Part shown: positions 32,583-47,605 of the stretch, in pieces
Layout: every line of letters starts with the position of its first letter
Position numbering within the stretch: position 1 is the first letter of the stretch
Assembly: GCF_030697305.1 (NCBI RefSeq)
Contig: NZ_JAUYQL010000048.1
Span: 1-53,883 of the forward strand
Direction of reading: 5' to 3'
DNA from: Phenylobacterium sp.
Lineage (GTDB): Bacteria > Pseudomonadota > Alphaproteobacteria > Caulobacterales > Caulobacteraceae
DNA: 53,883 nt
Program-made: the position numbers and the translations under genes
Notes under the pieces: generated by a model
Databases searched by the model: none
What the model was told of the DNA's origin: nothing
What the model saw: only the letters and a program-made list of their open reading frames with translations

Positions 32583-32597
32583 GAACAAAATAAGAAC
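32583..32597 (+). promoter_or_regulatory. LexA (SOS) box upstream of the radical SAM/UdgX genes
   Basis: GAAC-AAAATAA-GAAC, an exact match to the alpha-proteobacterial LexA box (GTTC/GAAC direct repeat with 7-base spacer), ending 14 bases before the ATG at 32612. Placement this near the start is consistent with repression by LexA and induction by DNA damage. Confidence 0.82.
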
Positions 32598-32611
32598 TAT
32601 ACGGTCGAAAC

Positions 32612-33838
32612 ATGCCAGTTCTCGACCTTAAGCGTAAGCTTTCCATTCTCGCGGATGCGGCCAAGTACGACGCTTCCTGCGCTTCTTCCGGAACCTCTAA
32701 GCGCGACTCCCGCGGCGGGAAGGGGGTGGGGTCGACCGAAGGCATGGGCATATGCCACGCCTATGCGCCGGATGGGCGGTGCATCTCCCTGCTCAAGATC
32801 CTGCTGACCAACTACTGCATCTACGACTGCGCCTACTGCGTGAACCGGGTGTCGTCGAACGTCAAACGGGCGCGGTTCTCGGTGGATGAGGTGGTCAACC
32901 TCACCCTCGACTTCTACAAGCGTAACTACATTGAGGGGCTATTCCTGTCGTCCGGGATCATCCGCGACGCCGACTACACCATGGAGGCGATGGTCCGGGT
33001 GGCGCGCGACCTGCGCCAGGTCCACGACTTCCGCGGTTACATCCACCTGAAGCTGATCCCCGAGGCGTCGCAGGACCTTGCCGACGAGGCTGGACGTTGG
33101 GCCGACCGGCTGTCGATCAATGTCGAACTTCCGCGCGACGAAAGCCTCAAGGCCCTGGCGCCGGAGAAGGACGCCGGCGTCATCAAGCGGGCGATGGGCG
33201 GGGTTCGCCTGGGCATCGACGCGGCCGGAGAGAAGGGGCGTCGCGCCAAACCAACCGCCTTCGCGCCCGCCGGACAGTCGACCCAGATGATCGTCGGCGC
33301 CGACGCCGCCAGCGACGGCGAGATCCTGGCGCGCAGCGAGAGCCTGTACGGCGCCTACCGGCTGCGCCGCGTCTACTATTCGGCGTTCAGCCCGATCCCC
33401 GACGCGCCCGGCCGCCTGCCGCCCATGCGCCCGCCGCTGATGCGCGAGCACCGGCTGTACCAGGCTGACTGGTTGATGCGCTTCTACGGCTTCGCGCGCG
33501 AAGAGATCGTCGGTCCGGCGGAGAACCTCGAACTGGGCATGGACCCCAAGCTCGCCTGGGCGCTGAAGCATCGCGGCGATTTTCCGGTCGACGTCAATGT
33601 CGCCGAACGCGAGACCCTGCTGAGGACGCCGGGGCTGGGGGTGAAGAGCGTCGACAAGATGATCGCGCTGCGCCGTCTGAAGCGGCTGGCGTTGCACGAC
33701 GTCGGCAAGCTCTGCCGCCGCATCGAGTCCGTGCGACCGTTCATCGTCGCCAGCGACTGGAGCCCGGGCGGGCTCACCGACAGCGCCGGCCTGGCGCGCA
33801 GTCTGACGCCGGCGCCGCAGCAGCTCGAGTTGTTTTGA
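32612..33838 (+). CDS. Putative DNA modification/repair radical SAM protein
   Basis: 408 residues. The 4Fe-4S radical-SAM motif Cx3Cx2C is at 69-76 (NYCIYDCAYCVNR). GICHAYAPDGRCISLLK precedes it, and a C-terminal helix-hairpin-helix-like segment follows (ETLLRTPGLGVKSVDKMIALRRLKRL at about 330-355), which would bind DNA. These features define the family annotated as putative DNA modification/repair radical SAM proteins, normally found beside a UdgX gene as here. The chemistry is unknown; repair of a DNA lesion is inferred from the partner and from the SOS box directly upstream. It overlaps udgX by one base. Confidence 0.9.
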   Translation: MPVLDLKRKLSILADAAKYDASCASSGTSKRDSRGGKGVGSTEGMGICHAYAPDGRCISLLKILLTNYCIYDCAYCVNRVSSNVKRARFSVDEVVNLTLDFYKRNYIEGLFLSSGIIRDADYTMEAMVRVARDLRQVHDFRGYIHLKLIPEASQDLADEAGRWADRLSINVELPRDESLKALAPEKDAGVIKRAMGGVRLGIDAAGEKGRRAKPTAFAPAGQSTQMIVGADAASDGEILARSESLYGAYRLRRVYYSAFSPIPDAPGRLPPMRPPLMREHRLYQADWLMRFYGFAREEIVGPAENLELGMDPKLAWALKHRGDFPVDVNVAERETLLRTPGLGVKSVDKMIALRRLKRLALHDVGKLCRRIESVRPFIVASDWSPGGLTDSAGLARSLTPAPQQLELF

Positions 33839-35274
33839 TGCCGGTGGTCAGGCTGGACTCCGAGGTGGACTTCGCCGGTTGGCGCACAGCCGCGCGGTCG
33901 CTGCGAGCGCAGGGCGTTACGCCGGACGACACGCTATGGACAGTGGATGGAGAAGGCGACCTGTTCGCTCCACCGCTGGAGGCCGCGGCTGCTACTGGCC
34001 CGGCCTTCACCGCGCCGCGCGAATTCCTGGCGCTGGCCCAGGCCGTGGTCCTGCATCGTTCGGACGACCGGTTCGCGCTGCTCTACCGCCTGCTGTGGCG
34101 ATTGGCGCAGACGCCGCACCTGTTGCAGTTGACCACCGACCCGGACGTCGCCCGCGCTCGCGATTTCGCCAAGGCGGTGGAGCGCGCCGCCCACAAGATG
34201 AAAGCCTTCGTGCGCTTTCGGAAAGTCGACGAGGCTCCAGGCGAGATGGAGACCTTCGCCGCCTGGTTCGAACCCGCCCACCGGGTGACCGAACGCACCG
34301 CGCCGTTCTTCGCCAGGCGCTACGCCAACATGCGCTTTTCCATCCTGACCCCCGACGCCTGCGCGCACTGGGACGGTGATGCGCTCAGCTTCACGCCGGG
34401 CGCAGACCCCGCCGACGCGCCTGCCGACGACGCGCTGGAGGAGTTCTGGCGCACCTACTACGCCTCGATCTTCAACCCAGCGCGGCTGAAGGTTGGAGCG
34501 ATGACCAAGGAGATGCCCAAGCGCTACTGGCGCAACCTGCCGGAGGCCTCGCTCATTCCGCAGCTGATCGAAGCCGCCGAGAGCCGCAGCCAGGCCATGG
34601 TCAGCGCGGGCCCCTCAGAACCCAATCGACGCATCGTGCGGGCCGCTCTGCGCGCCAGCCGTGACGCGCCCTATGACGGCGCCGCACCGACGGACCTGGT
34701 CGAATTGAACGCCCAGGTTCAGGCCTGCCGGCGTTGCTCGCTGTGGCGCGACGCGACGCAAGGGGTGTCGGGCGAAGGGCCCCGGAGCGCGCGGCTGATG
34801 TTCGTCGGCGAACAGCCGGGCGACCAGGAGGACCTGGCGGGACGACCGTTCGTGGGACCGGCGGGCCAGGTGTTCGACAGGGCGCTGGCAGAGGCAAGGG
34901 TGGAGCGCGCCGAGACCTTCGTCACCAACGCTGTGCGGCACTTCAAGCACGAGCTGCGGGGCAAGCGCCGGCTGCACAAGACGCCCGACGCCGGTGAGGT
35001 TCAGGCCTGTCGATGGTGGCTGGACAACGAACGACGGATGGTGCGCCCGCGGGTGATCGTGGCTCTGGGCGCCACGGCCGCGCTTGCGGTGCTGGGCCGC
35101 CCCACGCCGATCGGCAAGAACCGTGGCCAGGCCTTGCAATTGTCCGATCAGGGACAGGCGGTGGTGACCTACCATCCCTCGTACCTGTTGAGGCTGCCGG
35201 ACGAGGACGCCAAGGCCAAGGCCTACGCGGAATTCGTCGAGGATCTGCGGTTCGCGCAGCGGCTTGCGGCCTAG
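33838..35274 (+). CDS. udgX: UdgX-type uracil-DNA-binding protein with N-terminal DUF4130 domain
   Basis: 478 residues from ATG 33838 (TGATG junction with the radical SAM gene). The N-terminal half, about 1-240, is the DUF4130/TIGR03915-type domain (LYRLLWRLAQTPHLL, RTAPFFARRYANMRFSILTPD). The C-terminal half is a UDG fold with motif A MFVGEQPGDQED, the UdgX-specific loop KRRLHKTP (His at about 380), and motif B TYHPSYLLRLP. In mycobacterial UdgX this His replaces normal catalysis and forms a covalent bond with DNA after uracil removal. The same should hold here because the loop is intact. Cys residues in QACRRCSLWR fit the Fe-S cluster. Expression is probably SOS-induced. Confidence 0.93.
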   Translation: MPVVRLDSEVDFAGWRTAARSLRAQGVTPDDTLWTVDGEGDLFAPPLEAAAATGPAFTAPREFLALAQAVVLHRSDDRFALLYRLLWRLAQTPHLLQLTTDPDVARARDFAKAVERAAHKMKAFVRFRKVDEAPGEMETFAAWFEPAHRVTERTAPFFARRYANMRFSILTPDACAHWDGDALSFTPGADPADAPADDALEEFWRTYYASIFNPARLKVGAMTKEMPKRYWRNLPEASLIPQLIEAAESRSQAMVSAGPSEPNRRIVRAALRASRDAPYDGAAPTDLVELNAQVQACRRCSLWRDATQGVSGEGPRSARLMFVGEQPGDQEDLAGRPFVGPAGQVFDRALAEARVERAETFVTNAVRHFKHELRGKRRLHKTPDAGEVQACRWWLDNERRMVRPRVIVALGATAALAVLGRPTPIGKNRGQALQLSDQGQAVVTYHPSYLLRLPDEDAKAKAYAEFVEDLRFAQRLAA

Positions 35275-46996: not shown

Positions 46997-47605
46997 GTGG
47001 CCAAGGACAAGGTCAAGGAAGCCCCGGAAGAGGCCGCCCCCGAGGGGGAGGACGGCGAGGCTGCGCCTGGCAAAAAGAAGCTGCCGCTGAAGATGCTGAT
47101 CATCGCCGGCGCGGCCGCCCTGGTGGTGCTGGGCGGCGGGGGCACGGCGGCGTTCGTATTCCTCAAGCCCAAGCCCGACGCGGCCCATGCCGAGGACGCG
47201 AAGAAGCACGGCAAGGACAAGAAAAAAGACAAAGAGAAGGGCGGCCACGGCGAGAAGAAGGGCGAGGGCGGCGGCGCGGAGGTCAAGGAAGGCCCCGACG
47301 GCGTGCTGTTCTACACCCTGCCCGACGTGGTGGTGAACATGCAGACCGCCGAGGGGCGGCCCACGTTCCTGAAGCTCAAGCTGACCCTGGAGCTCCCCGA
47401 CCAGGAAACCGTCGACGAACTCGATCCGAACATGCCGAGGCTGCAGGACATGTTCCAGACCTTCCTGCGCGAGCTGCGGCCCGAGGACCTGTCGGGCAGC
47501 CAGGGCAGCTACCAGCTGCGCATGGAGATCCTGCGCCGCGTCAATCTGGTGATCGCGCCCGGCAAGGCGAACGCCGTGCTCATCGAGGAGATGCTGATCA
47601 ACTAG
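46997..47605 (+). CDS. fliL: Flagellar basal body-associated protein FliL
   Basis: Inner-membrane protein near the stator; it is needed for motility in Caulobacter. It has 202 residues from GTG 46997. The N-terminal cytoplasmic part is Lys/Glu-rich, with one membrane segment at about 33-56 (MLIIAGAAALVVLGGGGTAAFVFL). A highly charged Lys/Asp/Glu/Gly linker runs at about 58-95, then the periplasmic FliL domain (GVLFYTLPDVVVNMQTAEGRPTFLKLKLTLELP, LQDMFQTFLRELRPEDLSGSQGSYQLRMEILRRVN, ending VLIEEMLIN). First gene of the rightward operon. Confidence 0.95.
   Translation: MAKDKVKEAPEEAAPEGEDGEAAPGKKKLPLKMLIIAGAAALVVLGGGGTAAFVFLKPKPDAAHAEDAKKHGKDKKKDKEKGGHGEKKGEGGGAEVKEGPDGVLFYTLPDVVVNMQTAEGRPTFLKLKLTLELPDQETVDELDPNMPRLQDMFQTFLRELRPEDLSGSQGSYQLRMEILRRVNLVIAPGKANAVLIEEMLIN

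Follow-up and report, generated by a model that had tools for sequence, protein, structure and literature searches.

A LexA-linked radical SAM-DUF4130 operon with a fused UdgX domain in Phenylobacterium and its probable tie to the sliding clamp

Radical S-adenosylmethionine (SAM) proteins of the family TIGR03916 (rSAM_link_UDG) form an uncharacterized set with the families TIGR03915 (DUF4130) and TIGR03914 (UdgX). PMC8565304 includes the COG1573-COG4277 operon, in which COG4277 is probably TIGR03916, in the LexA network that it predicts for Bacteroidetes, and refers to earlier work on LexA control in Verrucomicrobia and Alphaproteobacteria. Furthermore, footprinting and expression suggest that LexA controls CAC3343-CAC3344 of Clostridium acetobutylicum, a radical SAM protein of the same name and a protein of unknown function (PMC3828012), and a gene of this name was up-regulated in Acinetobacter Tol 5 at 8% humidity (PMC13130816). 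The literature searched also mentions a LexA-linked radical SAM protein of Streptomyces. No reported activity of TIGR03916 was found in the literature searched, which lacks most subscription journals. In the present study, we analyzed a window of 53,883 nucleotides from Phenylobacterium sp. (assembly GCF_030697305.1, contig NZ_JAUYQL010000048.1), in which a LexA-type box, a radical SAM gene, and a DUF4130-UdgX fusion gene follow one another on the + strand at positions 32583 to 35274. The genome is a 2.8-Mb draft of 136 contigs, 93% complete, and the window is its contig C20.

The locus is a further member of this known LexA-linked family set. Its radical SAM protein scored 536.2 bits against TIGR03916 (cut-off, 343.5), and the protein encoded by the adjoining gene scored 210.5 bits against TIGR03915 (cut-off, 112.25), 132.8 bits against Pfam DUF4130, and 328.5 bits against TIGR03914, also over the cut-off. 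The operon is of the same kind as the published one, for which LexA control is predicted in several phyla, and no essential difference was found. Since the NCBIfam names record the gene link and predicted LexA control has been published, the module is not new; an earlier note on this DNA, made from the sequence alone, described the system as incompletely described, which stands for the uncharacterized family set, but not for the gene link or its predicted control. Three points appear useful and new: a sliding-clamp-type tail on the radical SAM protein, a conserved cysteine signature (GICHxYxPDGRC), and the view of DUF4130 before UdgX as the partner. None of them was met in the literature searched, within the same limits of coverage, and the available text on the published set makes no mention of the clamp motif, the signature, or UdgX being optional. 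On balance, we favor the reading that the operon encodes an SOS-controlled lesion-processing complex of the radical SAM protein and DUF4130 that is tethered to the clamp and, in many proteobacteria, has UdgX fused to it.

The LexA box (GAACAAAATAAGAAC), an exact GAAC-N7-GAAC direct repeat, lies at 32583-32597 and ends 14 bases before the ATG of the radical SAM gene at 32612, as previously noted. GAAC-N7-GAAC is given as the alphaproteobacterial LexA motif in the published text available. The window contains two exact matches against 1.45 expected, and the whole draft genome contains 94 against 46 for the reversed control pattern. An argument from the number of sites in the window was dropped because the count is no more than chance; the significance of the box lies in its position and conservation. 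Among 289 alphaproteobacterial genomes, 18 had TIGR03916 over the cut-off (window included), and the exact box was upstream of the radical SAM gene at 17 of these 18 loci, with L003 as the one locus lacking it. The exact box was also located within 150 bases upstream in 74 of 80 named loci, or 74 of 77 once those labeled as other groups were excluded. In a sample of 299 Pseudomonadota genomes, 53 had TIGR03916 over the cut-off, 36 of which were alphaproteobacterial (7 already in the first set) and 17 non-alphaproteobacterial; a few genomes are present in more than one of these locus sets. Exact GAAC-N7-GAAC was found at 29/29 further alphaproteobacterial loci of this sample, whereas the non-alphaproteobacterial loci carried CTGT-N8-ACAG (12 exact, 3 with one mismatch, and 2 without). 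In Pseudomonadota, the radical SAM gene therefore stays under a LexA box even though the LexA code changes. CTGT-N8-ACAG and GTTC-N4-GAAC are further LexA box types.

A promoter box conserved in orthologues is how a LexA-regulon gene is recognized, and such a box was found here; a genome of the same genus (G672, L220) has an identical box at an identical distance. In the Phenylobacterium genome itself, AT-rich GAAC-N7-GAAC boxes precede imuA-like and ssb-like genes, the proteins of which were recognized by eye. For other phyla and outlying loci, 14 upstream stretches (Bacteroides, Acinetobacter, Acetoanaerobium, a faecal contig, Caballeronia, and Verrucomicrobiota) were scanned for five box types. 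An exact LexA-like palindrome was present only at L160 (GTTC-N4-GAAC), and one-mismatch sites, some of which may be chance, were present at L114, L118, L122, and L156. By eye, L116 has CTGT-N8-ACAG, a type outside that scan, and GTTC-N4-GAAC can be recognized at L157, at the margin of the scanned sequence. As far as the conserved LexA box goes, the SOS-type control proposed in the earlier note is well supported.

The radical SAM protein (408 amino acids, 32612-33838) carries the cluster motif CxxxCxxC at C69, C73, and C76 (32816-32839), which is invariant in the alignments. Its Pfam Radical_SAM score was 29.3, 0.2 bits short of the cut-off of 29.5. The modeled barrel matched lipoyl synthase 4u0o (Z 17.8, root-mean-square deviation [rmsd] 3.5 over 228) and HydE 7o1o (Z 17.7, rmsd 2.8 over 213); the motif and the barrel together place the protein in the radical SAM superfamily. 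The structure matches are generic (lipoyl synthase, HydE, MqnE, and biotin synthase) and give no substrate. Upstream of the cluster motif, residues 46-57 form the motif GICHAYAPDGRC (32747-32782). C48, H49, D54, R56, and C57 were identical in 22/22 aligned members from four phyla (Pseudomonadota, Verrucomicrobiota, Bacteroidota, and Bacillota) and changed in 23/23 aligned paralogues, Gemmatirosa included, while C23 was retained in 22/23 of the paralogues as well. Lipoyl synthase has an N-terminal auxiliary cluster. The conserved cysteine signature and the likeness of the barrel to lipoyl synthase suggest a second Fe-S cluster site formed by C48, H49, and C57 with C23. The C-terminal helix-hairpin-helix (HhH) region (LLRTPGLGVKSVDKMIALRR, about residues 333-377, 33608-33742) claimed in the earlier note matched weakly by sequence (Pfam HHH_5, E 0.066; ComEA/RuvA chain profiles, E 0.025 to 0.7); however, an HhH-type motif is present and the structure model has helices there, which support it.

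The chain ends in APQQLELF. The bacterial clamp-binding consensus is QL[S/D]LF, more generally QxxLF, and the C-terminal QLSLF peptide of PolC binds DnaN of Bacillus subtilis (PMC12309361). C-terminal motifs of the QxxLF type are common to bacterial clamp-binding proteins, with PolC as the yardstick; unlike PolC, the present protein is a radical SAM enzyme and not a polymerase, and its link to the clamp is read from the motif QLELF (33821-33835). We scanned the last 20 residues of 96 relatives, leaving out the window and one truncated row. The motif was found in 95, as a pentapeptide in 89 and in a hexapeptide form in 6 more. In its strict form, it was present in 85/96 relatives and in 0/495 other predicted open reading frames (ORFs) of the loci; 12 of these control ORFs had the loose pentapeptide and 3 the hexapeptide. 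All 8 Verrucomicrobiota members have the motif (the genome of L122 is that of L092, which is among the 96), as do 17/17 non-alphaproteobacterial Pseudomonadota (6 strict and 11 loose). At the distant loci (Bacteroides, Acinetobacter, Acetoanaerobium, Caballeronia, and the faecal contig), it was found in 5/5 within the last 40 residues and in 4/5 within the last 20. The motif occurs in four phyla. Its distance from the HhH region varies from 57 to 84 residues across 140 proteins, and the motif is kept. Residues 403-408 have a predicted local distance difference test (pLDDT) score under 50, as expected for a free peptide. A QxxLF-type motif in a flexible, conserved segment is what marks clamp-binding proteins, and judging from the motif, the radical SAM enzyme is probably tethered to DnaN through its QLELF tail. 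No report of a clamp motif in this protein was among the literature matches listed, most subscription journals being outside coverage.

A second radical SAM-HhH subfamily was observed in Verrucomicrobiota (L161-L182; 24 of 145 genomes), at 245-296 bits and below the TIGR03916 cut-off. None of these 22 loci had DUF4130 in the fetched stretch, and 22/22 of the proteins lacked the clamp-type tail, their chains stopping soon after the HhH region.

The two genes of the operon share one base in TGATG (33836-33840), a stop/start overlap that couples them, as was recognized before. The second gene (33838-35274) encodes a 478-amino-acid protein, the AlphaFold2 model of which has a mean pLDDT of 89.1 and a predicted template modeling score (pTM) of 0.52. 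Its DUF4130 domain (33859-34548) had been described as an extra N-terminal domain of UdgX. The co-occurrence data reverse this description. Among the 289 alphaproteobacterial genomes, TIGR03916 and TIGR03915 were each over the cut-off in 18, and 17 genomes were shared. The two exceptions are G045, in which the radical SAM match ends near a contig end, and G182 (L020), in which the DUF4130 gene and the LexA box are kept and the radical SAM gene is a C-terminal remnant. The genome of Caulobacter crescentus (C. vibrioides), used as a control, matched TIGR03916 and exceeded the cut-off for TIGR03915. UdgX was over the cut-off in 24 genomes. A comparison of match positions showed that 10 of these carry it fused to DUF4130, that 2 radical SAM genomes (G033 and G260) have it only at another site, and that 12, some of them incomplete, have no TIGR03916 over the cut-off. 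Fused UdgX was absent in 7 of the 17 radical SAM-DUF4130 genomes, and 5 of them (G162, G175, G198, G252, and G271) had no UdgX over the cut-off. Among the 17 non-alphaproteobacterial genomes, DUF4130 was present in all, and UdgX was fused in 6 and absent from the module in 11. The partner at the Bacteroides, Acinetobacter, and Acetoanaerobium loci is DUF4130 alone, and the fetched stretch contained DUF4130 in 7/8 Verrucomicrobiota members, all except L156. CAC3344 of C. acetobutylicum is presumably DUF4130 as well, which is a guess only. The core of the module is the radical SAM protein with DUF4130, and UdgX is an optional part; we infer a joint function for the core pair.

A hemerythrin-like gene stands between the radical SAM and DUF4130 genes at five loci; Pfam PF01814 confirmed it at L058, L065, and L097, and it was recognized by eye at L007 and L061. 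L058, L061, and L097 are Stakelama and Sphingomonas. The encoded protein might protect the Fe-S enzyme or sense oxygen or iron for it. At L041, L042, L076, L105, and L109, the gap between the pair holds unrelated or no clear ORFs, and only the hemerythrin-like insertion recurs.

The UdgX domain (34552-35253) has GEQPG as motif A, a KRRxH R-loop with its histidine, HPS as motif B, and the UdgX fold, following the motif definitions in the available text of PMC10359453. The domain model matched Mycobacterium smegmatis UdgX 6l6s_A with a VIA-align Z of 31.6 and an rmsd of 1.3 over 196 residues. It thus shares the fold and the GEQPG, KRR-[LI]-H, and HPS motifs with that protein; unlike M. smegmatis UdgX, the solved chains of which are about 206-229 residues long, it follows DUF4130 within one fused protein, and its operon includes a radical SAM gene. 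Since KRRLHKTP aligns with KRRIHKTP of M. smegmatis, H380 (codon 34975-34977, in the R-loop KRRLH at 34963-34977) is taken as the crosslinking histidine, in agreement with the intact loop described earlier. A histidine-ending loop was found in 82/82 fused proteins scanned, with some duplicate rows, which suggests that selection maintains the reactivity of the UdgX part. By analogy with M. smegmatis, it would covalently capture uracil-derived apurinic/apyrimidinic (AP) sites. PMC10359453 proposes that this covalent capping keeps the genome from being fragmented, and suggests RecA-dependent pathways or proteases as possible means of resolving the adducts. The fused proteins of L013, L014, and L016 have UdgX without the CxxC and a later Cys, probably Fe-S ligands, and keep a K(R/Q)RIH loop. 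G095 and G205 have a second UdgX over the cut-off, separate from the one fused to DUF4130.

The favored reading of a clamp-tethered radical SAM-DUF4130 complex builds on an observed gene order, co-occurrence, boxes, motifs, and the folds of two of the three domains, and may be outlined as follows. LexA would repress the operon through the box at 32583, and inactivation of LexA upon damage would lead to expression. The radical SAM enzyme would be recruited to DNA by its HhH region and to DnaN by the flexible QLELF tail. There, at stalled forks or behind them, it may act as a pair with DUF4130 and use radical chemistry, perhaps with a second Fe-S cluster, on nucleotides that are damaged or misincorporated. 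In modules with a fused UdgX, uracil at these sites would be excised, and covalent capping would keep the AP site from turning into a strand break. AP-site capping with RecA-dependent resolution (PMC10359453) fits co-induction with SOS. A more detailed version, which we put forward only tentatively, is that a two-cluster radical SAM enzyme rides the clamp during SOS and, together with DUF4130, searches the template or nascent DNA for a base lesion, which it reverses or edits by radical chemistry, and that UdgX was fused later to capture the uracil or AP product and leave forks unbroken. TIGR03916 was found in 53 of the 299 sampled Pseudomonadota genomes and in other phyla, behind boxes of different LexA codes. 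The clamp motif points to a probable place of action, and the co-occurrence of DUF4130 to a protein that an assay needs to include; that UdgX is optional indicates that the crosslink is probably not the main business of the radical SAM enzyme. The label "putative DNA modification/repair" thereby becomes a few cheap tests.

Several observations weigh against this reading. No box of the five scanned types was found at the Bacteroides loci L112 and L119, the Acinetobacter locus L113, or at L154, L155, L158, and L159, and 7/8 Verrucomicrobiota members had no mismatch-free box by script (L157 has one by eye). Boxes were also missing at 4/95 alphaproteobacterial and 2/17 non-alphaproteobacterial loci. 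Concerning the tail, L003 (QLSLAI) was the sole miss of the pattern among the 96 relatives; unusual forms occur, such as the Bradyrhizobium-type QLGFGF and QPRLL at L032; the loose form of 11/17 non-alphaproteobacterial motifs includes QMALW; and Gemmatirosa L115, a distant protein, has a QLSLW tail, yet no DUF4130 adjoins it. Furthermore, the relatives are not independent samples. The cysteines of the putative second cluster lie in a poorly modeled stretch (residues 26-58). No solved chain was matched by a profile of DUF4130 alone at E values up to 10. When the model of the fusion protein was compared with the PDB and with viral libraries, the lists were taken up by matches to the UdgX part, and no fold match for DUF4130 emerged. 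Clamp binding, a DNA substrate, a joint complex, and the order of events are what we infer in this reading.

Other explanations were also weighed. The earlier note raised the possibility of a relation between the radical SAM enzyme and the covalent UdgX-DNA crosslink, which the enzyme would either resolve or use. The shared operon and the loop histidine retained in all 82 fused proteins speak for this relation, but UdgX is uncoupled from the radical SAM gene both ways: 7/17 alphaproteobacterial and 11/17 other Pseudomonadota modules have no fused UdgX, and the radical SAM gene is missing from 12/24 UdgX genomes. The near-constant presence of DUF4130 and the optional presence of UdgX are therefore evidence against crosslink resolution as the purpose of the radical SAM enzyme, and the RecA-dependent pathways or proteases suggested in PMC10359453 offer another route of resolution. 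No paper containing both "UdgX" and "radical SAM" was found in the literature searched, which leaves out most subscription journals. We consider such a relation very improbable. The reading given in PMC8565304, a base-excision system for SOS conditions built on a uracil-DNA glycosylase (UDG) with the radical SAM protein as an accessory, is unlikely: many modules without a UDG have LexA boxes and the same tail, and one UDG-less module is linked to LexA in Clostridium, so that uracil removal is unlikely to be the core function.

Instead of DNA, the radical SAM enzyme may modify a protein, which would be DUF4130, the clamp, or a polymerase. Lipoyl synthase, HydE, and similar enzymes, which the barrel resembles, act on proteins or small molecules, and the constant protein partner could be a substrate. 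However, the HhH region, the LexA boxes, and the clamp tail fit a DNA substrate better, and although none of these is decisive, we regard protein modification as rather unlikely. A direct-reversal enzyme for a UV lesion, similar to spore photoproduct lyase (SplB), also appears quite improbable. SplB is likewise a radical SAM protein tied to the SOS response in the published text available, and differs from TIGR03916 proteins, which have an HhH region, a clamp-type tail, and a DUF4130 partner. Spore photoproduct lyase was not among the 50 structure-match rows listed, which does not exclude kinship or disprove this reading, and the Phenylobacterium genome has another radical SAM protein that is SplB-like by eye at a LexA-type box (L139).

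The neighbors of the module, a divergent gene of transglutaminase-like type and a convergent gene for a TetR-family regulator, have no apparent relation to it. Matches to the module were present in 158 of 72,556 plasmid records and 10 of 50,697 phage records, and a viral-contig scan yielded two loci. L117 (CAKLQH020000003.1) and L113 (CP040042.1), labeled as Acinetobacter phage and plasmid, have glyQ/glyS and further housekeeping genes around the module and look chromosomal. Since some matching records look chromosomal, carriage on mobile elements was not drawn as a reading.

Other boxes were noted in this genome. The second exact GAAC-N7-GAAC site of the window, at 47417-47431, has a mixed spacer (GAACTCGATCCGAAC), lies inside predicted ORFs, and is probably due to chance. 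An AT-rich GAAC-N7-GAAC box (L131, C7:7083-7097) lies between the imuA-like gene and a divergent gene that is Ku-like by eye, and end joining may also be under LexA in this genome. The other radical SAM protein noted above (L139), similar to SplB/PA0069 by eye, is encoded divergently beside its LexA-type box at C22:1268-1282.

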